From positions 1-30,667 of IMG/VR virus record IMGVR_UViG_3300035698_013511: a DNA stretch of 30,667 nucleotides. The stretch is one strand, 5' to 3'. Below, in pieces: positions 3,037 through 24,233 of this stretch. Origin of the DNA: a virus. Each line of letters opens with the position of its first letter. Within the stretch, counting starts at the first letter, position 1. A program made the position numbers and the translations under genes. The notes under the pieces are model-generated. The model saw only the letters and a program-made list of their open reading frames with translations. It was not told the DNA's origin and did not search any database.

Positions 3037-3348
3037 ATGGAAGAAAAAAAGAAAAAAGAAAAGACTTTTAAAAGTACTTTAAGAGATAGATTAAATAAAC
3101 TTGTTGGTGATGATGTACAAGTAGAAATAGTTACTGAGAAAGAAACTGTTTCAGGTAGAATTAGCGAAGTAGGAAAAGATTTTGTAGGAATTGTTCGTGT
3201 TATAGAAGAAGAAGAGATTCGAAAAAATATAGATCAAAATAATAAAGAAGAAGAACAAAAAATAATTTTAATATTAGAGCTTGAAATTTTAATAAGATTG
3301 CAGGATATTATATCTATATCAAGGATATTAAGATCAAGTTATCGTTAG
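3037..3348 (+). CDS. Small Sm-like protein (tentative)
   Basis: A 103-residue protein with a very basic start (MEEKKKKEK). The pattern LxxLVGDDVQVEIVTEKETVSG is followed by a second strand (DFVGIVRV), an acidic insert and a final hydrophobic segment ending in IISI. A helix followed by strands with a VxVxT...VxGxIxxVxxDFVxI pattern resembles Sm/Hfq-fold and DUF2642-like proteins. An RNA or protein scaffold role would follow from that fold, but the match is by eye only. The ATG directly follows the upstream TGA, so translation is probably coupled. The stop lies 10 bp before queE. Confidence 0.5.
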   Translation: MEEKKKKEKTFKSTLRDRLNKLVGDDVQVEIVTEKETVSGRISEVGKDFVGIVRVIEEEEIRKNIDQNNKEEEQKIILILELEILIRLQDIISISRILRSSYR

Positions 3349-6825: not shown

Positions 6826-7398
6826 ATGCAATATAAAAATTTAGATTATCTGGATTATGACGGGTCTCAATTGCACCATGCATTTGCTTATAAAGAAGCG
6901 GGCCTTTTAGGACCTTCTTTAGTCTATTTTCACGGGGGTGCTAATGTTAAGGAACATTTAGTTGATTTAGAAGATTCTATATCTAATGATTATATTAGTG
7001 CTGATGATATGGTACATTTTATTATTGAGATTCCTGAAGCATCTATTCGAGAGATGGTGGTTTGGCAACGTTATTTTATTAGATGGATTGCTACGTGGCT
7101 TATGGATCACGGGGTAAGTGCGAAATATAGGGATACCTATTCTGGGCTTTGTGTTAATGGTGATGATATTATTATAGAGTCTCGTAAACTTTCAGTATCT
7201 ATTGCTACATTGTCCCAGTTTTCTGGACTTATACATGTGGGGATTAATATAGATCCAGGAAAAAATTGTCCGGTTGCCGCTATTGGTTTAGATGAATTAC
7301 ATCAAAATTGGGAAATTTTTGCGGGTGATATTGCTGAAACATTTTGTAAAGAATATAATGATATACAAAGAGCATGTTATAAAGTAATTGGAGTGTAG
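6826..7398 (+). CDS. DUF366-family protein, possible CDG decarboxylase (DpdL-like)
   Basis: A 190-residue protein. The start is fixed at ATG 6826 by GGAGG at 6817-6821; the previous gene stops at 6824. The centre holds SGLCVNGDDIIIESRKLSVS, then IATLSQFSGLIHVGINI, a pattern I recognise from DUF366, a family found in archaea and phages. From memory and not checked here, DUF366 proteins were proposed as the 7-carboxy-7-deazaguanine decarboxylase DpdL that leads to plain 2'-deoxy-7-deazaguanine in phage DNA. Close linkage to the DpdA-like gene and QueE fits this. If right, the base made would be 7-deazaguanine without a side chain and would need no QueC. Confidence 0.65.
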   Translation: MQYKNLDYLDYDGSQLHHAFAYKEAGLLGPSLVYFHGGANVKEHLVDLEDSISNDYISADDMVHFIIEIPEASIREMVVWQRYFIRWIATWLMDHGVSAKYRDTYSGLCVNGDDIIIESRKLSVSIATLSQFSGLIHVGINIDPGKNCPVAAIGLDELHQNWEIFAGDIAETFCKEYNDIQRACYKVIGV

Positions 7399-7403
7399 TG
7401 TTT

Positions 7404-7754
7404 ATGGAAAAATGTGATAAGTTCGACGAAGACCCAGAATTTCAAAAGACTTTGATGGAAGACTCTAAAAAGATTATGGAAGAAGTGCTACGTCGAGTAG
7501 ATGATAGTGCAAAGAAGTATGGTACTGCATACACTCTTGCTGATATTAGTACTGAGTTTGATGAAGAATTGCTTGATATAGTAGGATGGCCTTTGTTACT
7601 TATGGTCAGATTACGTCAGATTATGCAAAAACGTCTTCCAGAGATAAATAATCAATATTTAGAGAAGTTTTTGAAGTATCATGATAATGAGTATCTTTTA
7701 TATTTACGGGATCAAATTAACTTGGAATTACAAGAGCGTATTTCTAGTGAGTGA
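7404..7754 (+). CDS. Unknown acidic helical protein
   Basis: About 116 residues from ATG 7404 (GGAG at 7390-7393; GTG 7398 in the same frame is an alternative, overlapping the previous stop). The protein is highly charged and predicted all-helical, with a central hydrophobic LLDIVGWPLLLMVRLRQIM and a C-terminal YLLYLRDQINLELQERI. No family was recognised. It is packed tightly against the DUF366 gene and is probably co-translated with it. Confidence 0.65.
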   Translation: MEKCDKFDEDPEFQKTLMEDSKKIMEEVLRRVDDSAKKYGTAYTLADISTEFDEELLDIVGWPLLLMVRLRQIMQKRLPEINNQYLEKFLKYHDNEYLLYLRDQINLELQERISSE

Positions 7755-7803
7755 ATGAACTATTTTATAAGTGGGTATATGTCTATGAAAGCGGTGGTGT
7801 AAA

Positions 7804-8148
7804 ATGTCTGCAAAGTTTTTTAAATTTAAAATAAGTAAATCGTTACTTAAAAAGGCACCCCATGTTTCTAAAACATTACAAGATATCCCTAAGGATTTAC
7901 GCGATATTTTTACTCCAGAGACTGAAGAGGATATTTTTGTATTTGAAATGAATATAATACAATTTGTAAAAAGAGAAAAAAATCGTGAAAAAGTTATGCT
8001 GATTCAAAGACAGTTTGATCTTCCTATTCGACCTAATCAAGATTTGGAAAAATTGTCTATTTTAGTTCGTATATTTTTATTAAAACAAGAAAAAAATCAA
8101 CAAAATGGTCAAGAGGATAGGGATCCATTAGGTGGTCTTTATACATAA
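7804..8148 (+). CDS. Unknown small basic protein
   Basis: A 114-residue protein with a Lys-rich N-terminus (KFFKFKISKSLLKKA), a central DLRDIFTPETEEDIFVFEM segment and a hydrophilic Gln/Asn-rich tail ending in GGLYT. The ribosome site GGTGGTG stands just before ATG 7804. No domain was recognised. The 49 bp between the previous gene and this one also hold a 15-codon open frame (7755-7802) that is probably spurious. Confidence 0.6.
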   Translation: MSAKFFKFKISKSLLKKAPHVSKTLQDIPKDLRDIFTPETEEDIFVFEMNIIQFVKREKNREKVMLIQRQFDLPIRPNQDLEKLSILVRIFLLKQEKNQQNGQEDRDPLGGLYT

Positions 8149-9337: not shown

Positions 9338-12300
9338 ATGGGTTATCTTCTTCCTGGTACACGCTTTCAACGGTTTGGGGACACGCTTATTCCATCATAT
9401 GCAAATTCTTCAGGACTTAATGCAATCCCGTCAATTAAACCTATTGCTGGTGGTTCTATAACTAATACTCAAAATAGGATTGCTCGATCGAAGAGTGCCG
9501 CGCTTGCAGATATTAGTAGGACTGCCCCCACGTTTAATGATCCCCGATATACATTTACCACTCTTAGTATTCCTACAGATCTTCGTACTTTAAATGGGTT
9601 ATACAGATTTTTTGATGACACAGATCCAGTGGTGGGTAACAGCTTACGTCTCCATTGTGAATTCCCCCTTTCGAGAATTTCTCTAAAAGCAATTGGGGAT
9701 CCAGTAATTCAACATCATTATGAGGAGATGTGGTCCCGTTTAAATATGGAGAAACTTCTCTTTGATATTGCATTAGAATACTGGCGTATTGGTAATGTAT
9801 TTGCGTACGGTGCGTGGAATGTTGATGATTTTATGTGGGACCAGTTTGTAATTTTAAATCCTGATTATGTTACTGTTGAAAGTACTTATCTTAATCAACG
9901 CCCTTTTATTAAATTGCAACCAGATGAACATTTGAAGAAAATAGTTACTACAGGGCAACCTAAATTTTTATATGATCAACTTCCAAGAGAGATTATTAAG
10001 TATGTTAGAATGGGGCAAGAAATTCCTCTTGCACCTAATAATGTTTTTCATTTGGCACATAATAAAGCACCTTATGAGACATTAGGGCGTTCAATTATTA
10101 AAAGAATTTTAAAAAGTCTTATTTATGAAGACCGGATGTCAATGGCTAATTTTGCTGTAGCTACTCGTCAGACTATCCCAATTACAGTTGTTAAAATAGG
10201 TGATCCTGCATCAGGATGGGTCCCAGATTCTGATGAACTTGAAGAAGTGCGCCAATTATTGTCTGCCAGAGAAGTGGATCCCAACTTTTGTTATGACGAA
10301 GAAACAGAGTGTCTAACAAATACAGGCTGGGTGAAATATACTGATCTTACATATGATCATAAAATAGCAAGTTTTAATCCTAATAATAATAGCCTTGAAT
10401 ATTCACATCCCCAAGCAATTACTGTTCAAGATTATGATGATGATATGATTCATTTTAAATCTCGTAAGATCGATTGTAAAGTGACCCCAAATCATCGTAT
10501 GTGGGTTAAACGTGATGACAAATGGCGAGTGATTCATGCAGAAGATGTCGTCGAAACTGATGTCTTTCGAAATTGTGTGGATACTTATGAGAGTACTCCC
10601 TTATCAGATACCTTAGAGATCGCTGGTAAAATAGTCGATACAGGGGATTTCTTCGAATATATAGGTTGGTATATTTCAGAAGGATCTGTTAGTGGTTGTA
10701 GTTATCCAGGAAGGAATTATCAAATACGTATTACCCAAACACAGAAAGGATCATTTGCAGCTGTGGAACAGATAATGAATAAACTTCCTTGGAAATGGGC
10801 GCTTCATGATGGTTACCAGTTTGCGATTAATGATGTAGGATTAGGCGATTATTTAGTAGATAATTTTGGTAAAGGTTCCAGTAAAAAGAAACTCCCGCGT
10901 TGGGTATTAGATGCCCCTCCTCAGTATTTAGAAAGGTTGTTTACTGCTTATATTGATGGTGATGGTACCACTATAAAGACAAAGAGAGGTATATTTTATC
11001 AAGCTCATACTGCTTCTGAAAAGCTTGCAGATGCATTACAAGAAATCGGAATTAAGTTAGGGTATGCGGTCAGTTTAAAAACTCGTGAAAGTTCTTTTAA
11101 ATGGGGTGGGAAAAAGATTCCAGGAACTCATTATGATGGGGAGCGTTATTATATAAGAGCTAATGGTGAAAAGTATTTTGATTTACATAGATTAAATTTT
11201 TCTATGGATGATGTGTCGAGGTTCCCCAAACTTAAGCGGCGTAAAGATTATAATACCCCCCTTAAACAAGAAGTAGTTTTAGTAGGTGAAATTCCTCGAA
11301 AGGGTAAAAGGATTGATTGGGATAATGTTGACTTACCTTCTATTGTAGAAAAGACTGGAGGGTATGCTCCATTAGCATCGAAACTTTTAGGGTGTTCTGT
11401 TGGTACTGTTCTCGGTCAAATGGAGAAATTAGGAATTTCTCCTAAGAAGGTAGGTACTCGTGTATCTAAATATGAAGATACTGGAAATATAAAAAGAGTA
11501 CCCTACAAAGGGAAGATTTGGTGTGTATCCGTTCCAACTGGGATTATTATAACTAGACGGTACGGGGCCCCTTGTATAGCCGGGAACACATTAATTTACC
11601 ATTGGGGGATCGATATCCAATTCTATGGGGCTGCCGGAAAGATCTGGAACCTCACTAATGAATTTAATAGAATTATGAAATGGAAACTATTAGGTTTAGG
11701 AATATCTGAATCTATTCTTACAGGTGCTGGATCGTACGCATCTGCATATGCACAACTCGAAGTACTGCGTCAACGGTATTTACATTTTCAAACTACTTTA
11801 CAAAATTTTGTTTATCAAGGAATTTTTGAACCTGTTGCCCGCCAGTGTGGTTTTTATAAAACAAACGATGTAGTTGCTGGTAAATATTATCAAGGTAAAA
11901 AGTATGGGAGTCCTGAAGATCGTGTTGCATCTACTGAGACATTAATTCGTAAACATGGTGAGGGTTTTGGTAATTCAATAAATCAAACATATGTAGATCA
12001 TCTTATATATAAACAAGCTACTCAAGATAAAGAAATATCTCTTGTGTATCCAAAACTTGATTGGGATCTTTTGTCTTTGTCTAATGATGTACAATATAGA
12101 AATTTTTTGATGAATTTAGATAGACTGTTTCCAGGCCAACGTAAAATTTCAGAGGATACTTTTTATACTGCTGCAAAACTTGATAGAGATACAGAGCGTA
12201 TGAAGATAAAGACAGAACATGAAGAAGAGTTAGAGGATGCATTAGAAAAAGGTAAAGTAGATAATACATATAGAGAAAAGTTTGCTAAAGATGGTATTCC

Positions 12301-12748
12301 TTTCCCCATGGATCCTAAAGCACAACCAGGGCAACCGGGGCAACCAGGTTCGCCTGGTCCAGGGGGGTCTATAATTCCTCCAGGAGGAGCTCCACCAATG
12401 GGTGGTACTGGGGGGGGAAATCTAATGGGTACTCCTGCAATGACGCCTAATGCGCCTATAGGTAAGAATCAGTTCACAGGCTCTCCTAGCCAAGCGGGCC
12501 CTGCACCAGGAATTCCCAGAAGTCCTGAAGCTTCTCGGTATAAATCAATGAAGCTGCATAATGATTTAACGCGGGCTGCGGTAGAAATAGAAAAAGGAAA
12601 TGATGCTGAAGTTTTGAGATTACGCAAATTTAATAAAACTGCGGGTATTAATGTTGATGCTATTGATACAGAAATTAAATTAAATATTGATGAAGGTGGA
12701 TCAGATGTTGCTGAATCTCCGGAAAATTTCGATACTAAAAAAAGCTGA
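9338..12748 (+). CDS. Portal protein precursor interrupted by an intein
   Basis: 1136 residues in one frame. Removing residues 318-750 as an intein leaves a 703-residue portal, the dodecameric ring at one capsid vertex through which DNA passes. The extein shows features of large myovirus portals: NVFHLAHNKAPYETLGRSIIKRILK, the split RQLLSAREVDPNF joined to TLIYHWGIDIQFYG, and SLTNEF-like helices with SILTGAGSYASAYAQLEVLRQRY after the junction. The tail (about 994-1028) is a Pro/Gly-rich, collagen-like stretch, and KFNKTAGIN near the end resembles possible maturation sites in other head proteins here. The stop overlaps the next gene. I call it portal from these patterns and its place before the protease and capsid genes. 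Confidence 0.85.
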   Translation: MGYLLPGTRFQRFGDTLIPSYANSSGLNAIPSIKPIAGGSITNTQNRIARSKSAALADISRTAPTFNDPRYTFTTLSIPTDLRTLNGLYRFFDDTDPVVGNSLRLHCEFPLSRISLKAIGDPVIQHHYEEMWSRLNMEKLLFDIALEYWRIGNVFAYGAWNVDDFMWDQFVILNPDYVTVESTYLNQRPFIKLQPDEHLKKIVTTGQPKFLYDQLPREIIKYVRMGQEIPLAPNNVFHLAHNKAPYETLGRSIIKRILKSLIYEDRMSMANFAVATRQTIPITVVKIGDPASGWVPDSDELEEVRQLLSAREVDPNFCYDEETECLTNTGWVKYTDLTYDHKIASFNPNNNSLEYSHPQAITVQDYDDDMIHFKSRKIDCKVTPNHRMWVKRDDKWRVIHAEDVVETDVFRNCVDTYESTPLSDTLEIAGKIVDTGDFFEYIGWYISEGSVSGCSYPGRNYQIRITQTQKGSFAAVEQIMNKLPWKWALHDGYQFAINDVGLGDYLVDNFGKGSSKKKLPRWVLDAPPQYLERLFTAYIDGDGTTIKTKRGIFYQAHTASEKLADALQEIGIKLGYAVSLKTRESSFKWGGKKIPGTHYDGERYYIRANGEKYFDLHRLNFSMDDVSRFPKLKRRKDYNTPLKQEVVLVGEIPRKGKRIDWDNVDLPSIVEKTGGYAPLASKLLGCSVGTVLGQMEKLGISPKKVGTRVSKYEDTGNIKRVPYKGKIWCVSVPTGIIITRRYGAPCIAGNTLIYHWGIDIQFYGAAGKIWNLTNEFNRIMKWKLLGLGISESILTGAGSYASAYAQLEVLRQRYLHFQTTLQNFVYQGIFEPVARQCGFYKTNDVVAGKYYQGKKYGSPEDRVASTETLIRKHGEGFGNSINQTYVDHLIYKQATQDKEISLVYPKLDWDLLSLSNDVQYRNFLMNLDRLFPGQRKISEDTFYTAAKLDRDTERMKIKTEHEEELEDALEKGKVDNTYREKFAKDGIPFPMDPKAQPGQPGQPGSPGPGGSIIPPGGAPPMGGTGGGNLMGTPAMTPNAPIGKNQFTGSPSQAGPAPGIPRSPEASRYKSMKLHNDLTRAAVEIEKGNDAEVLRLRKFNKTAGINVDAIDTEIKLNIDEGGSDVAESPENFDTKKS
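10289..11587 (+). mobile_element. Intein with LAGLIDADG homing endonuclease and HTH, in portal gene
   Basis: 433 codons. The first residue is Cys318 (CYDEETECLTNTGWV, splicing block A). Block B is KVTPNHRMWV. The C-terminal block is GKIWCVSVPTGII...RRYGAPCIAGN ending in Asn750, with Thr751 as the first C-extein residue. The penultimate residue is Gly and not the usual His. Two LAGLIDADG motifs, EYIGWYISEGS (440-450) and ERLFTAYIDGDGT (532-544), keep their acidic residues, so the endonuclease may be active. Residues about 668-700 look like a helix-turn-helix (GGYAPLASKLLGCSVGTVL) that could add DNA contacts. The product should splice itself out of the portal and home into intein-free alleles. 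Confidence 0.92.
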
Positions 12749-15864: not shown

Positions 15865-18800
15865 ATGCTCAGGAAGTATGCATCGGCAACAATTACTGAC
15901 GTTATTACATCCGAAGAGAAATTTAATCAGGTTACCAAAGATTCTTCTCTTATTACTGTTGCATCTCCTGATGATTTAAGTCCACGTAAAGTAGTTAAAT
16001 ATAACCCTGATTTCGTATATGCCCGTTTTAAAGCAATCGGTAGTTTGGAAGCAGATGGTCCGAACGCTAATGCTGATGGATTCCCTTATGATCAATTTTT
16101 AGATAATAGATCAAATTATGGGTACCAATCGTTTATAGGTAAACATGCATTTATAGAACATGCGAGTGATAATATTGGTAATTCTATTGGGGATCTTTAT
16201 GCTGCTTACTTAAATAGATTCCCTACACAAACATTTGGGCGTGAGTGGGTAGAATTAAAGGATGATGAAAGGTTTCATATCCTTGCAAACAGGCAACCTC
16301 ACGAAGATGGTAGTATAGAAGTTTTAATGGCAGTTGATCGGCAACTTGCTCCAAAAATTGCGCGAATGTTAGAGACAGGATCCCCAACTGGGTGTAGCAT
16401 GGGGACCAATATAGATTGGAGTGAGTGCACCATTTGTGGCAATAAGGCATACGTAGAAGAAAATTATTGCCCCCATATTAAATTCAGTAAAGGTCAACAT
16501 GTTTTAGTTCCTGCAAGTCAACTTAGTCAGTTGATGAAAGCAGGAACTTTGCGTCCTGAGTGGCTTCCTTTTATTTTAAATCGTGCTGAAGATATTAAAG
16601 CCGTTAAAACGGCTGGCCGCAAAATGGTGTATGCGAAAGCATTTGAAGTTAATTATGGTTTAAGTTTCTTCGAATTGTCTATTGTAGCGAATCCTGCATT
16701 TAGTAAAGGTTATAAATTAGAAAAGGTGGCTTCTTTTAACAAACCTTCTTCTCAATTGATGCCCATGATTCATATTGCAGGCACTCCTATAGAGATGCTC
16801 TTTAATGTATCAAACGGATATTTTACAGATTCTATAGATAACCGTTCTCCAGAAGAAGAAGCACTTTTACAACGTGATGGTGAAGTTGCTAAAAATGCGT
16901 TAGCAAGTGGGAATGTCCATGAGGTTTTGGTAGATAAACGAAATGCTCCGTATTTTGTTAGTGCTAATATTGATTTAGTTCCCTCGGAGACGCCAGGGTT
17001 TTATAGAGTATCTGATCCTGGTGTGTTATTAGATAAAAGTTTTGCTAATACACGTAAATGGAATAAAATAGGTGTTGTAGGTACTATTGAAGAAGATTTC
17101 TTTGCTTGTGCTTCTTGTAAGAATGTATTTAATCGAAAAACTGCGAAGAAAGCAGATGTTCACGATATTACAAGTTTTACATCTTTTTCTATTTGTCCAG
17201 AGTGTGAAAAAGTTGATATACGTCGTAAAGGGGATGATAATAATATGTCCAAAAAACAAGCGGAATATGAAGCCCATCCAGGAACTTGTGAATTTACTGG
17301 GGATAAAGAAGTAATTCCTGGTAAAGGTGCTTTTGTAGGTGATAAAGATCTTTATGAAGGTTGGGCAGAAAAAGGGAGTAAATTAATTGAGAATGAAAAG
17401 GAATATAGGCCTATGGGAACAATCTTTGTAGATGCGATCGTAGCTAAAAGTGATTTTAATAATCGTTCTGCTCGTATTAAGGATCTTCGTAAGTCTGCTG
17501 AGACTTTAATTTCACGAGTTAAACTTGCTTTAGAGGCTCCCGATGATTTTCTTAAAGAAATGGGTCCTGGTAAAGGTCCTGGTAAAGGTCCAGGCAGAGG
17601 CTTAGGTCCTGGTAAAGGTCTTGGGCCACAACTTGGATTAGATGGGCCTGGTACAGGTATTTGTGTAAAAAAGCCTATTGCTGCTTTTGAAGAAAATGGT
17701 TTAAGTGATTTACTTTCTTCTGATGATGGTATTGATATAGCTATTGATATGGGGCCTGAAAGTATTGATGAAATTTTAGAGAATACTAAAGCAGATCTTG
17801 AGTTAGTATTACAAGATTTACAAATGGCTAAAGGAATGACTGATGCTCGTGAAAATGAAGCAATTAATGCTCTTGCGAACAAGGTTCGTTGGAGCCGCCG
17901 TCTTGTAATAGCTGCAGAGAAAACTGCAAGTGATGTAGATAAGTTAATTGAGGATGCTGATGCTGCTGTTAATGATGCTTTAAGTAAACTTCAGGAAGCT
18001 TGTAATGTTTTGAATGGTACACCTTCTGATGAAGAAAGTGAAGATTCTGAGAATACTACTGAAAAAAAAGATGATGATATTAAAGATAAAAAAGATAATA
18101 CTAATGATAATGATACTGAAGGAGATGACCCAATGGCAAAAGAATCAAAACTTGAATTGACTCAAGAGAATATTGGGTTGATTCGCCAGTTTAAGGATGC
18201 GTTTACTGTTCTACCATCTGAAAAAACTGCTGCAGATGATGATGATGAAAAGGATGAAAAGGACGAGAAAGATAATCCTTTTGCAAAGAAGGATGAAAAA
18301 GATGATGATAAGAAAGATGAGAAAAAAGACGAGAAAAAAGACGAGAAAGATAATCCTTTTGAAAAGAAGGACGCAGCTATTAAAGATGTAGTTAAAATGG
18401 GCAGCGATACACCTTTAGAAAAAGGTGCTACTGCAATGCCCCCAACAGGTGCTCGTGATCCTGGTGATTATGGTGACGCTGGCGCGATTGAGCGTTTTGA
18501 GATGCAGCGCTGGTGGACTGACATGTATCCTGAGTACGAGAAAATGAAAGCTACTGAACGTGCTACAGATCTTAATGACCCTGCAGGCAAAGTAGATCTT
18601 TTAACAGGGCCTGTTGGTAATAAACAGTTAGATGATCCCGAAGTAGGTAAGCAAACCAGTGTTCCGAATATTTTTGCGAAGAGATTTACAAAGAGTGATC
18701 CTAAATGGGGTACTTTTATTGGTGTGATTAAAGTTGCAGAAGATGGTAGTACTGAAGCATTTACGGCTAACTTTCATGATGTCGCGGGGACTGATGGCGA

Positions 18801-19701
18801 TCAAGAAGCGTATGACGCTTTTACATCTGAACCATATATAGACACAGTTGTAGATACTGTAAAAGAACACGGTGTATCAGAAGCTGCGAAGCAGATGCAA
18901 GGGAAGTTTGCCCAGTTAGAAAATATTACGCCTGGGAAGACTCAAAAAGTTAATCCTCTTTATGATACTAAAGAAGAAAAGAAAAATTCGAACAAAGAGC
19001 GTTCGAGTATGCGCCCTGATGAAAAAGAGGGCCATGGAAAAACTTCAGGTGATAAAGAATATTACGGCAAGGCCTATGGTGATGCTGGATATGCTAGTGA
19101 TCTTGTGACCGCCCAAAAGAAGGTTGCTTCTTTAACGCAAGACGTTCAAAATTTGAAGACAGAGAAGATAGCTTCTAAATTAGCTGATAGGGCATTGCAT
19201 TTGGCACGTATTTCAGCTTCTAGGGGTATTATTCCTTTTGATCTTGCTAGTATTTCAAAACAAGCGAAGGAATATATTAAATTAGATGAAACTGGTGTGC
19301 AAATAGTGAAGGCGCAGTTGGAAAAACTTCCTGTTCGGGATCAAAGAGCTCTTGAGGCTTATCAGATTCCGGAAGCAGAGAATATGCAAAAAGGAGTTAT
19401 TCATAATACTGTAGACGCTGTAGATAAGATTAGGATGCAGCATACTAATGCCGGTGATGCTGCCCCTGAGGGAATTCAGCCCGCAGTAAAAAGGGATGCA
19501 CAACTTACTGAGGCCCAGCAGGATAAAATTCGTAAGCAAGCTGAAATAGTTCCTCAGATGCATATGGATAATACTGCAGGTATTCCAGGAGGTATTCCTG
19601 ATGTTACGAAACATTTTAACACCCTCGAAAATCAGTTAAAAGCTCGAGGTGGTAGTGTATATGATGATAATAAACAGTATTTACACAGTAATCGTAGATA
19701 A
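15865..19701 (+). CDS. Prohead protease fused to a long scaffold-like region
   Basis: 1278 residues. Residues about 45-290 resemble the head-maturation protease of large myoviruses: GKHAFIEHASD with candidate His99, TGCSMGTNI with candidate nucleophile Ser178, a zinc site (C188, C191, C202, H204) and ELSIVANPAF. A second zinc finger is C415/C418 with C444/C447. Then come an EFTGDKEVIPGKG segment, a Gly-Pro-Lys repeat (about 567-598), an acidic helical part, a very acidic Lys/Asp/Glu repeat (about 789-836, NPFxKKD twice) and a coiled-coil C-terminus. The long charged second half looks like scaffold. Strong internal starts (feature at 18133; weaker at 17245) suggest separate production, as in lambda C/Nu3. 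It should cleave scaffold and capsid precursors. Confidence 0.75.
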   Translation: MLRKYASATITDVITSEEKFNQVTKDSSLITVASPDDLSPRKVVKYNPDFVYARFKAIGSLEADGPNANADGFPYDQFLDNRSNYGYQSFIGKHAFIEHASDNIGNSIGDLYAAYLNRFPTQTFGREWVELKDDERFHILANRQPHEDGSIEVLMAVDRQLAPKIARMLETGSPTGCSMGTNIDWSECTICGNKAYVEENYCPHIKFSKGQHVLVPASQLSQLMKAGTLRPEWLPFILNRAEDIKAVKTAGRKMVYAKAFEVNYGLSFFELSIVANPAFSKGYKLEKVASFNKPSSQLMPMIHIAGTPIEMLFNVSNGYFTDSIDNRSPEEEALLQRDGEVAKNALASGNVHEVLVDKRNAPYFVSANIDLVPSETPGFYRVSDPGVLLDKSFANTRKWNKIGVVGTIEEDFFACASCKNVFNRKTAKKADVHDITSFTSFSICPECEKVDIRRKGDDNNMSKKQAEYEAHPGTCEFTGDKEVIPGKGAFVGDKDLYEGWAEKGSKLIENEKEYRPMGTIFVDAIVAKSDFNNRSARIKDLRKSAETLISRVKLALEAPDDFLKEMGPGKGPGKGPGRGLGPGKGLGPQLGLDGPGTGICVKKPIAAFEENGLSDLLSSDDGIDIAIDMGPESIDEILENTKADLELVLQDLQMAKGMTDARENEAINALANKVRWSRRLVIAAEKTASDVDKLIEDADAAVNDALSKLQEACNVLNGTPSDEESEDSENTTEKKDDDIKDKKDNTNDNDTEGDDPMAKESKLELTQENIGLIRQFKDAFTVLPSEKTAADDDDEKDEKDEKDNPFAKKDEKDDDKKDEKKDEKKDEKDNPFEKKDAAIKDVVKMGSDTPLEKGATAMPPTGARDPGDYGDAGAIERFEMQRWWTDMYPEYEKMKATERATDLNDPAGKVDLLTGPVGNKQLDDPEVGKQTSVPNIFAKRFTKSDPKWGTFIGVIKVAEDGSTEAFTANFHDVAGTDGDQEAYDAFTSEPYIDTVVDTVKEHGVSEAAKQMQGKFAQLENITPGKTQKVNPLYDTKEEKKNSNKERSSMRPDEKEGHGKTSGDKEYYGKAYGDAGYASDLVTAQKKVASLTQDVQNLKTEKIASKLADRALHLARISASRGIIPFDLASISKQAKEYIKLDETGVQIVKAQLEKLPVRDQRALEAYQIPEAENMQKGVIHNTVDAVDKIRMQHTNAGDAAPEGIQPAVKRDAQLTEAQQDKIRKQAEIVPQMHMDNTAGIPGGIPDVTKHFNTLENQLKARGGSVYDDNKQYLHSNRR
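18133..19701 (+). CDS. Predicted separate scaffold product from an internal in-frame start
   Basis: ATG 18133 is codon 757 of the protease/scaffold gene. GAAGGAG at 18118-18124 precedes it with an 8-nt spacer, as strong as the best ribosome sites in the window. The product would be 522 residues, starting MAKESKLELTQENIGLIRQF and made of charged repeats plus C-terminal coiled coil, as expected of a scaffolding protein that needs many copies. A weaker start is ATG 17245 (AAAGGGG 11 nt before). Nested scaffold genes inside protease genes are known in lambda and other phages; use of this start is inferred. Confidence 0.55.
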   Translation: MAKESKLELTQENIGLIRQFKDAFTVLPSEKTAADDDDEKDEKDEKDNPFAKKDEKDDDKKDEKKDEKKDEKDNPFEKKDAAIKDVVKMGSDTPLEKGATAMPPTGARDPGDYGDAGAIERFEMQRWWTDMYPEYEKMKATERATDLNDPAGKVDLLTGPVGNKQLDDPEVGKQTSVPNIFAKRFTKSDPKWGTFIGVIKVAEDGSTEAFTANFHDVAGTDGDQEAYDAFTSEPYIDTVVDTVKEHGVSEAAKQMQGKFAQLENITPGKTQKVNPLYDTKEEKKNSNKERSSMRPDEKEGHGKTSGDKEYYGKAYGDAGYASDLVTAQKKVASLTQDVQNLKTEKIASKLADRALHLARISASRGIIPFDLASISKQAKEYIKLDETGVQIVKAQLEKLPVRDQRALEAYQIPEAENMQKGVIHNTVDAVDKIRMQHTNAGDAAPEGIQPAVKRDAQLTEAQQDKIRKQAEIVPQMHMDNTAGIPGGIPDVTKHFNTLENQLKARGGSVYDDNKQYLHSNRR

Positions 19702-19740: not shown

Positions 19741-20295
19741 ATGGCGAACACACTTACTCTGAATGGTTATTTCGGAGTGAAGCAAGCGTTCCATGTATCT
19801 GATCCTGTTATCGCTACTGGGTGGTATGCAGGGTACTTGTTTAACGTTGCAAGCATTGGACTTTCTGGTGCCGGCGTTTTACAAGGTGCTGTTGGTGCTA
19901 GAGGGCCGTTTGTCGGTTTAAACGCAACTTCAGGTGCAGCGATCGCAGGTGTTGCTATGGAAAACTCTTCAGATGAGTCTCTTGCAGTTGCAGGGATGTC
20001 TCATCCGTCTGGTTCTAAAGTAACATTGCTTCATGGGCACAGTACCTTTTTCATTGATTTTGGAGGTACCGCTACTTCGGCGACTACCCGGCAATCTACA
20101 GGCGCTCCGTGGGAAGTAGATATTGAATCTGCTAGTCTCATGGATATGTTGTATGCTAGTTCAAATGCAAAGTTTTGTGAAGCTACCGGCGGTGACGCGG
20201 CTGAACAAGATACTATTAAACATGCAATAGGTCATTGTACACAAGTACCGGCTGCAGGAAATAGTTGGACATTAGGAGTTACCCTATACGGGTAA
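19741..20295 (+). CDS. Probable capsid decoration/stabilising protein
   Basis: 184 residues, rich in Gly, Ala, Ser and Thr, with a beta-strand pattern throughout and no charged clusters. A very strong AGGAGGA site before ATG 19741 suggests high expression. The gene lies directly between protease/scaffold and the major capsid gene, the usual place for head decoration proteins (as lambda D or similar). GHCTQVPAAGNSWTLGVTLYG at the end and KVTLLHGHSTFFIDF are beta-like. No family was recognised, so the role rests on position, composition and expected abundance. Confidence 0.6.
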   Translation: MANTLTLNGYFGVKQAFHVSDPVIATGWYAGYLFNVASIGLSGAGVLQGAVGARGPFVGLNATSGAAIAGVAMENSSDESLAVAGMSHPSGSKVTLLHGHSTFFIDFGGTATSATTRQSTGAPWEVDIESASLMDMLYASSNAKFCEATGGDAAEQDTIKHAIGHCTQVPAAGNSWTLGVTLYG

Positions 20296-20310
20296 GGAGG
20301 GAATATCTAG

Positions 20311-21303
20311 ATGGAAAAACAAGCTAGTTCATACCCGCCAGGATTCCAAAAAACGGCTCCTAATGCGGGTTTTGCTGTAGAGAAACAGGCAACTGATTTC
20401 TCTTCGAACGATCCTTATTCACAGTACACTGGTGCTAGTGAAGAAGATCAAATTTTTACTTTGCTTCAGACCGAAGCAGGCCGTCAGGCACTTGGTGCTC
20501 AGATGGCTATACCTATTCGTACTCAGCTTGATTATCAGGGCATGGCACGTAGATTTTTTGAAATCGATGTACTAGGTCAGGGTTAGATTGCTCGGTATGA
20601 TCGTGATATTGATGCCTTTGCTTCTACTGTTACAAAGAAGGGTGAAGCTGTTGAATTTATCGTGGAAGGTGAATATGTTGAACCGGTTACCTGGGAAATT
20701 TTTGCACCGGCCGCAATCCGGTTGAAAGAGATCCAGCAACGTAGGTTTAATGTCCTTGATCGTATGCAAGAGCGGATTCGTATCGCTGTGCAGCTTGAAG
20801 AGGACACACAGTTTTTAGCATTATCTGATATTACTGTGACTGCTAATACTGCTAACAATGCAGTTACTGTAAGTACTGCTGGGTGTAGTAAAGATTTCAT
20901 GAATCAATTGTCTGCTGTAATTATGAAATGGGATCTTCCAGCGTATGCATTTTTGATGAATTTCACTACTTATTCTCATTTGCGTTCGTGGAGACGGGAA
21001 GATATCGATCCTGTGACTCAGCGTGAAATTTGGCAAACGGGTCTTGTTGGAAGTGTGTGGGGTATTGATTTGATCGTATCTCGTTTAGTTCCTGATAGCA
21101 CTGTTTTCTGTTATTCTGAACCACGTTTTACCGGTGTGTTACCTGTTCGTACTGATCTTATCCTTCTGCCAGATGATACCCCAAAAGAGGCACTCATTGG
21201 GTATGTTGGATATGAGGAAATCGGAATGTTGATGGTTAACAGTAATGCGGTTGCAAAAGGTACATTTACTTCGTATATTGGTCATCATGCATTTACTGCT
21301 TAA
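20311..21303 (+). CDS. Major capsid protein (HK97 fold) with in-frame TAG at codon 92
   Basis: One frame of 331 codons that is open except for TAG at 20584-20586. Before it are 91 residues with a cleavable-looking N-terminus (EKQAS, QKTAP, EKQATD) ending MARRFFEIDVLGQG. After it comes IARYDRDIDAFASTVTKKG, then WEIFAPAAIRLKEIQQRRF, DLPAYAFLMN, SVWGIDLIVSR and GYVGYEEIGMLMVNSNAVAKG, the usual pattern of myovirus HK97-fold capsid subunits. The conserved QG-x-(I/L)xRYDRD segment spans the TAG, so both halves belong to one protein. The second half has no ATG near its start (first GTG at 20662). The ribosome site GGAGGG is before ATG 20311. Readthrough, suppression, true damage or a sequence error are all possible. 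Confidence 0.85.
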
Positions 21304-22989: not shown

Positions 22990-23466
22990 GTGTGGAAAGC
23001 TAAATTTACAGATGGTACGGAAATTTTTGAGTATGATGATAAAGGGAATGAAGTTTTATTCAAACGTGTTTTAGAAAATGTAGAAAATTTATGTAATTTA
23101 TTTATTATTCAGGACAATATGACATTTAGTGTAAATATGTCCAATGGTTTATTTGAAATCCAACATAAAGAAAATGCACAATCTGCTATTAGTTTTTATG
23201 CGTTGAGTAATGAGGTAATGACAAATATTACAAAATTGCAAAACGTTAGACCTATTTATTTTGTTAGAGAAACAATAAATTTCAACACAGTATTAACTCA
23301 CAATGTTTCTAGTGGAAAAATTATTTATAATGCAACACCACCTACAATTGAATTTACTGCTTTAGGTTTTCAATGTAATTTAAAAGATGGCCGTAATATT
23401 AAAAGATATTTAGCAATATTCCCTAATGGGGTTTTTACAATAGAGGGGGGTGGCTTATCCAAATAA
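22990..23466 (+). CDS. Unknown tail/neck-region protein
   Basis: 158 residues from GTG 22990, directly after GAGGAGGA. It starts MWKAKFTDGTEIFEYDDKGNE and has a beta-rich body of alternating short strands (NMTFSVNMSNGLFEIQH, IKRYLAIFPNGVFTI). No family was recognised. The last codons contain a run of six G followed by T (23445-23451). That run is both a G-rich ribosome-site-like stretch for the next gene and a possible -1 slippery sequence (G GGG GGT), see findings. Its TAA overlaps the likely start of the next gene. Confidence 0.65.
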   Translation: MWKAKFTDGTEIFEYDDKGNEVLFKRVLENVENLCNLFIIQDNMTFSVNMSNGLFEIQHKENAQSAISFYALSNEVMTNITKLQNVRPIYFVRETINFNTVLTHNVSSGKIIYNATPPTIEFTALGFQCNLKDGRNIKRYLAIFPNGVFTIEGGGLSK

Positions 23467-24233
23467 TATATCGAGATAGATCAGAGAGAATTTGGTCAGA
23501 TTTTAAGGATGAAAACGGTGTAAGTGTTAAACCTTCTGGTGATGTTACATTAACTGTCCAATTTCAAACAGGTCAATCAACAGTTACAGATGTATCTCCT
23601 ACACATTCTGAAGATGGTAAATATTTTTATGATTTAAACGCTGCGGGGTACGACTTCGGATATTATGGGGCTTGGTGGCGTGTAGAAGAAGCCGGGGTAA
23701 CTATTACTCAAGATGTCCCCAATGTTTTCAAAGTTGAAGATAGAAAAGAATCTATTATTAAAGGTGTCATGATGGAACGGGTGCGTTCAATGTTATATAT
23801 GCATTCAGATTCTGCTGGATACCAGAACAAATTTCCTAGAGATAGAGAGATTCTAGATTATCTTCAAGAGAGTTTAAATTGGTGGAATGCTTTTCCTCCT
23901 GCAGTTACGTGGCATTCTTTTTTAGACATCCCTATGCCTTATTATGCTATTATAGAAGAAGGTGCTGTAATTAAAGCATTGCAAGCTATTGGTATTTATG
24001 AAGCTGGGAAGCATTTCAATTATAATGATAATGGAATATCATTGATGCGTGATCGTTCCGCGAAATATCAAATGATTTGGAATGGTTTATTACAAAATTA
24101 TACTACAAATTTAAAAGCTATGCGCACTAAATATGCGTTAGATAATGTAAGAATTTTGGGAATGTTCAGTAGCACAACTGGGTTCCCAAGATCTTTGTCC
24201 AGAGCTTTGCGCGGGGTATCAAAATTTGCGTGA
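23466..24233 (+). CDS. Neck protein with Ig-like N-terminus; non-standard start
   Basis: The frame is open from 23427 to TGA 24231-24233, but the only ATG/GTG/TTG starts are at 23766/23769 and beyond, 300 bp inside. The bases before that are clearly coding: YRDRSERIWSDFKDENG, VTLTVQFQTGQSTVTDVSP, EDGKYFYDLNAAGYDFG and YYGAWWRVEEAG form an Ig-like beta domain. I place the start at ATA 23466, which makes the TAATA overlap where the window elsewhere has TAATG (26027-26031). AGGGGGG and GGTGG stand upstream. Reaching the frame by -1 slippage in the preceding gene is the alternative. The C-terminal part (about residue 105 on) is helical (ILDYLQESLNWWNAF), like neck or adaptor proteins. Confidence 0.65.
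   Translation: MYRDRSERIWSDFKDENGVSVKPSGDVTLTVQFQTGQSTVTDVSPTHSEDGKYFYDLNAAGYDFGYYGAWWRVEEAGVTITQDVPNVFKVEDRKESIIKGVMMERVRSMLYMHSDSAGYQNKFPRDREILDYLQESLNWWNAFPPAVTWHSFLDIPMPYYAIIEEGAVIKALQAIGIYEAGKHFNYNDNGISLMRDRSAKYQMIWNGLLQNYTTNLKAMRTKYALDNVRILGMFSSTTGFPRSLSRALRGVSKFA

Follow-up and report, generated by a model that had tools for sequence, protein, structure and literature searches.

An in-frame amber codon in the major capsid gene of a phage genome fragment, most likely an ordinary nonsense change

The stretch of DNA analysed here (the window) is the complete 30,667-base linear record of an IMG/VR virus, a genome fragment. It carries a major capsid gene whose 330-codon frame is open save for a TAG at codon 92, within the stretch LGQG-X-IARYDRD. 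The features of the locus are as follows.

15865..19701, + strand: large intact gene with a head maturation protease-like segment, marking the head gene cluster (phrog_18299, homologues)
19741..20295, + strand: conserved upstream neighbour gene, intact in the window and in relatives (homologue comparison)
20294..20300, + strand: ribosome-binding site of the capsid gene, AAGGAGG, intact
20311..21303, + strand: major capsid protein gene, phage G gp27-like, HK97 fold, a single frame with one interruption (phrog_2522 for both halves, PDB 6wkk_A, HK97-fold matches)
20584..20586, + strand: in-frame TAG, codon 92, aligned with glutamine in 34/34 covering close relatives
20587..21303, + strand: 238 codons plus stop 3' of the TAG, in which purifying selection persists and which has no start of its own before the GTG at 20662

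The window capsid is a phage G gp27-like HK97-fold major capsid protein. Both halves of the gene match PHROG 2522 (major head protein), and Bacillus phage G gp27 (PDB 6wkk_A) is matched with E 1e-67, or 4e-83 by profile. Residues 3-278 of 6wkk_A align with residues 38-316 of the window capsid (E 1.3e-67), which establishes homology with the mature capsid domain. This alignment, with 38.5% identity over 87% of the query, runs unbroken through codon 92, although the phage G gene is intact and specifies alanine at the aligned position. The closest named phages to the capsid are phage G and the acidobacterial phage Tunturi_5. In a structural model of the capsid of one relative (L090) the core is confidently predicted, whereas the mean pLDDT is just 51.6, and Foldseek matches the model best to HK97 capsid chains (E about 5e-5), albeit at low TM-scores; the 6WKK sequence match outweighs this model as evidence. 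The HK97-fold identification made in an earlier, sequence-only reading of the window is thus upheld, and the sequence together with the alignment of relatives also bears out its description of the TAG as codon 92 of one continuous capsid frame, inside a conserved stretch.

The capsid ATG is preceded by a good Shine-Dalgarno sequence, and the frame is no chance ORF, since homology crosses the stop in relatives without gap or frameshift. An intron or intein at the TAG was considered and rejected, the frame being seamless there and without insertion. Because the TAG precedes the long spine helix and the entire P/A core, the 91-residue product would be devoid of the spine helix and of the P and A domains and, judging from the L090 model and the HK97 fold, cannot form a capsid subunit. 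The second half had been said to lack a usable start, and indeed its first ATG, GTG or TTG is the GTG of codon 118 (20662), with no ribosome-binding site either there or at the ATT of codon 93.

The alignment of homologous capsid genes, which the sequence-only reading had proposed, identifies the residue that belongs at codon 92. It is glutamine in all 34 relatives covering the site (about 54-85% identity, including about five near-duplicates of others), encoded by CAG in 20 and by CAA in 14. CAG is used by five of the six nearest relatives, so that the TAG can be explained by a single C-to-T transition. The intact IMG/VR relatives L018/L088, L022/L090, L001 and L021 share the gene neighbourhood and a protein 83-85% identical, but have CAG or CAA where the window has TAG. 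At greater distance the residue differs, being alanine in phage G and valine in L051 (24% identity). The TAG is seen solely in this record: none of the 34 relatives has a stop at this position, a TAG-specific degenerate pattern for the site matched no other viral contig, and a search for siblings in the genome collection matched two contigs, neither with a capsid gene.

The remainder of the capsid gene is without decay, as indicated by the absence of private substitutions at otherwise invariant columns (0-7 in relatives) and by low dN/dS on either side of the stop. Against six near relatives this ratio lies at 0.02-0.06 upstream of the stop and at 0.06-0.10 downstream. These values are rough, synonymous sites being near saturation, but show that both halves are strongly constrained by purifying selection. 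No internal stop was found in about 30 other window genes with homologues, nor in 156 gene-locus pairs of the relatives (45,424 aligned codons).

The code of the window is standard. TAG ends 11 of its 35 genes and is not depleted as a terminator, in line with the earlier count of at least eleven. Seven or more of these genes co-terminate with homologues (the ORFs ending at 3348, 4195, 7398, 9090, 22865, 27117 and 29627 finish within about 7 codons of homologue ends), which shows that TAG is a true stop in the window. ORF coverage, by a crude ORF count, is 93.5% under the standard code and 95.5% with TAG read as glutamine, a rise far short of the coding-density gain of >10% by which code 15 is assigned to contigs of 5-100 kb (PMC9523058). 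Back-up stops after TAG-ended genes, such as a suppressing genome might have, gave no signal: the mean distance to the next stop is 7.7 codons (permutation P about 0.16), in a comparison dominated by one outlier running into the following gene.

There are no tRNA genes in the 30,667-base window, and so no CUA anticodon. The relatives' contigs are richer, with 14 tRNAs in G008, 35 plus a tmRNA in G028, eight in G022, three in G005 and one each in G001 and G012; the CUA anticodon is absent among all those read. The 35 predicted tRNA genes of G028 (locus L084, G028:C1:123000-141000) serve most amino acids and are accompanied by the tmRNA. Two further candidates were rejected. A tRNA of one relative that ARAGORN had missed has the anticodon loop AATGATA and reads TGA (Ser), hence not amber, and a tRNA-like gene of the close relative G008 (L083 11611-11682), unassigned by ARAGORN, has an 8-base anticodon loop, TTTTTACT, that is not CTA. 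G008, whose capsid is 85% identical, also has a tRNA-Gln(CTG), one base off an amber suppressor. This leaves the idea of suppression alive, yet is no evidence for it.

Several explanations of the codon-92 TAG can be weighed against these data. The code-15 crAss-like and Lak phages, in which TAG is reassigned to Gln (PMC9523058, PMC8346664), likewise have TAG where glutamine is expected; however, in-frame TAGs are numerous in those phages, their coding density rises under code 15 and they have suppressor tRNAs, features not seen in the window. Use of code 15 by this phage would fit the ancestral residue, glutamine being what code 15 inserts. It is nonetheless largely refuted, with next to no probability left to it, by the eleven TAG-terminated genes, several of them co-terminating with homologues, by a density gain of 2 points, and by the fact that about 30 genes that have homologues are free of any further in-frame TAG. 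The sequence-only reading had been correct in setting aside a genome-wide reassignment. Suppression of a real stop is the more plausible proposal, though still unlikely: a host or phage tRNA, for example a mutated tRNA-Gln(CUG) with anticodon CUA, would insert an amino acid at UAG and so produce full-length capsid. The proposal fits a capsid gene that is otherwise undamaged, and with a 30.7-kb fragment of the genome on record, a suppressor may lie outside it. A phage tRNA-Gln one anticodon base from a suppressor does exist in the G008 set, and the A or V found at this column in distant capsids (phage G and L051, respectively) implies that the identity of the residue may be flexible. Against it stand the lack of a CUA anticodon in the window and among the relatives' tRNAs, including the 35 of G028, the eleven genes that stop at TAG, and the occurrence of a single internal TAG where code-15 phages have many. 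It is decidedly improbable that a standard-code phage is involved that, with an amber suppressor just gained by phage or host (a mutated phage tRNA-Gln, for instance), tolerates the capsid TAG as its first in-frame one, an early step to code reassignment. Were suppression true, it would reveal a phage just entering amber reassignment.

Programmed readthrough, in which a leaky amber would set capsid yield or provide a useful 91-residue product, agrees with the position of the codon within a continuous frame and with the A that follows it. An A directly after a stop codon is a comparatively leaky context for readthrough. However, no relative has the same stop, the local 101-nt stretch beginning at the stop is no more stably folded than shuffled sequences (z -0.62), no separate domain is contained in the short product, and such a stop would throttle the most abundant virion protein. 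Programmed readthrough at codon 92 is therefore unlikely, and in our estimate very much so. The suggestion that a leaky stop controls capsid yield is opposed, in addition, by an ancestral glutamine one transition away, by the lack of a suppressor tRNA in the relatives' contigs, and by the fact that only 1 gene among the roughly 30 that could be checked is affected. It is more improbable again that this is a defective duplicate of a capsid gene whose intact copy lies in another part of the genome. The incomplete genome would leave room for a second copy, but the gene lies in its standard position with conserved neighbours, it shows no decay, and the larger relatives (contigs of 54-194 kb) have one capsid gene; in G028, an insertion appears to divide a single gene into the two capsid matches seen.

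Highly probable, in our view, is a sporadic nonsense change of one base in a major capsid gene of ordinary type; it would be a consensus error or else an amber allele that is genuine and of recent origin. This reading explains everything with the fewest assumptions. The ancestor would have had glutamine at codon 92, probably as CAG, and one C-to-T transition would have given TAG, which the alignment places in this record alone. As no other part of the gene is damaged and all of it is under constraint, the change is of very recent origin, an artefact, or harmless through readthrough; purifying selection along the whole gene is equally expected under efficient readthrough, which counts against a sporadic nonsense change. 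We give a consensus error in this metagenome contig slightly less than an even chance, although it would be a lone isolated error in a contig without other visible fault. A genuine new amber allele, which we regard as possible but somewhat doubtful, would be lethal alone, given its truncated product, and could be maintained solely by co-infection alongside intact siblings, in the manner of laboratory head-gene amber mutants; the division between error and allele is a judgement and not a measurement. Laboratory amber mutants in head genes such as T4 gene 23 give an N-terminal fragment. The window would resemble these classical mutants in having an amber within the major head protein gene, and in the fragment made, but they were selected in laboratory suppressor hosts, whereas no suppressor is known for the window phage. 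The codon-92 TAG is thus most likely ordinary, with no new control of capsid production. The options first listed for it (suppression or readthrough, mutation, error) were the right ones, and mutation or error fits all the data, while control by a leaky stop is unsupported. More generally, a lone TAG in a contig assembled from a metagenome says little in favour of recoding, and one should look at relatives, stop usage and tRNAs beforehand.

Other irregularities were observed in this group of phages. Insertions interrupt the capsid gene at almost the same codon in several relatives, namely L006 (about 7070-7950) and L047, L048 and L050 (around codons 63-68). Motifs resembling those of a group I intron, AATCAGCAGGAAACC and AAGATATAGTCC, occur in the L006 insertion, which also has its own ORF but gave no Rfam match at the gathering threshold. 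L050 has a second capsid insertion after codon 96, four codons past the position of the window's TAG. The portal gene of the window (9338-12748) includes about 430 extra in-frame codons (10289-11587) with a LAGLIDADG match, which are not in L088 or L096, are apparently present in L090, and probably represent an intein. Finally, a conserved gene at 23457-24233 (64-74% identical in relatives) has no ATG, GTG or TTG at the start indicated by its homologues, and probably begins with a rare start codon.
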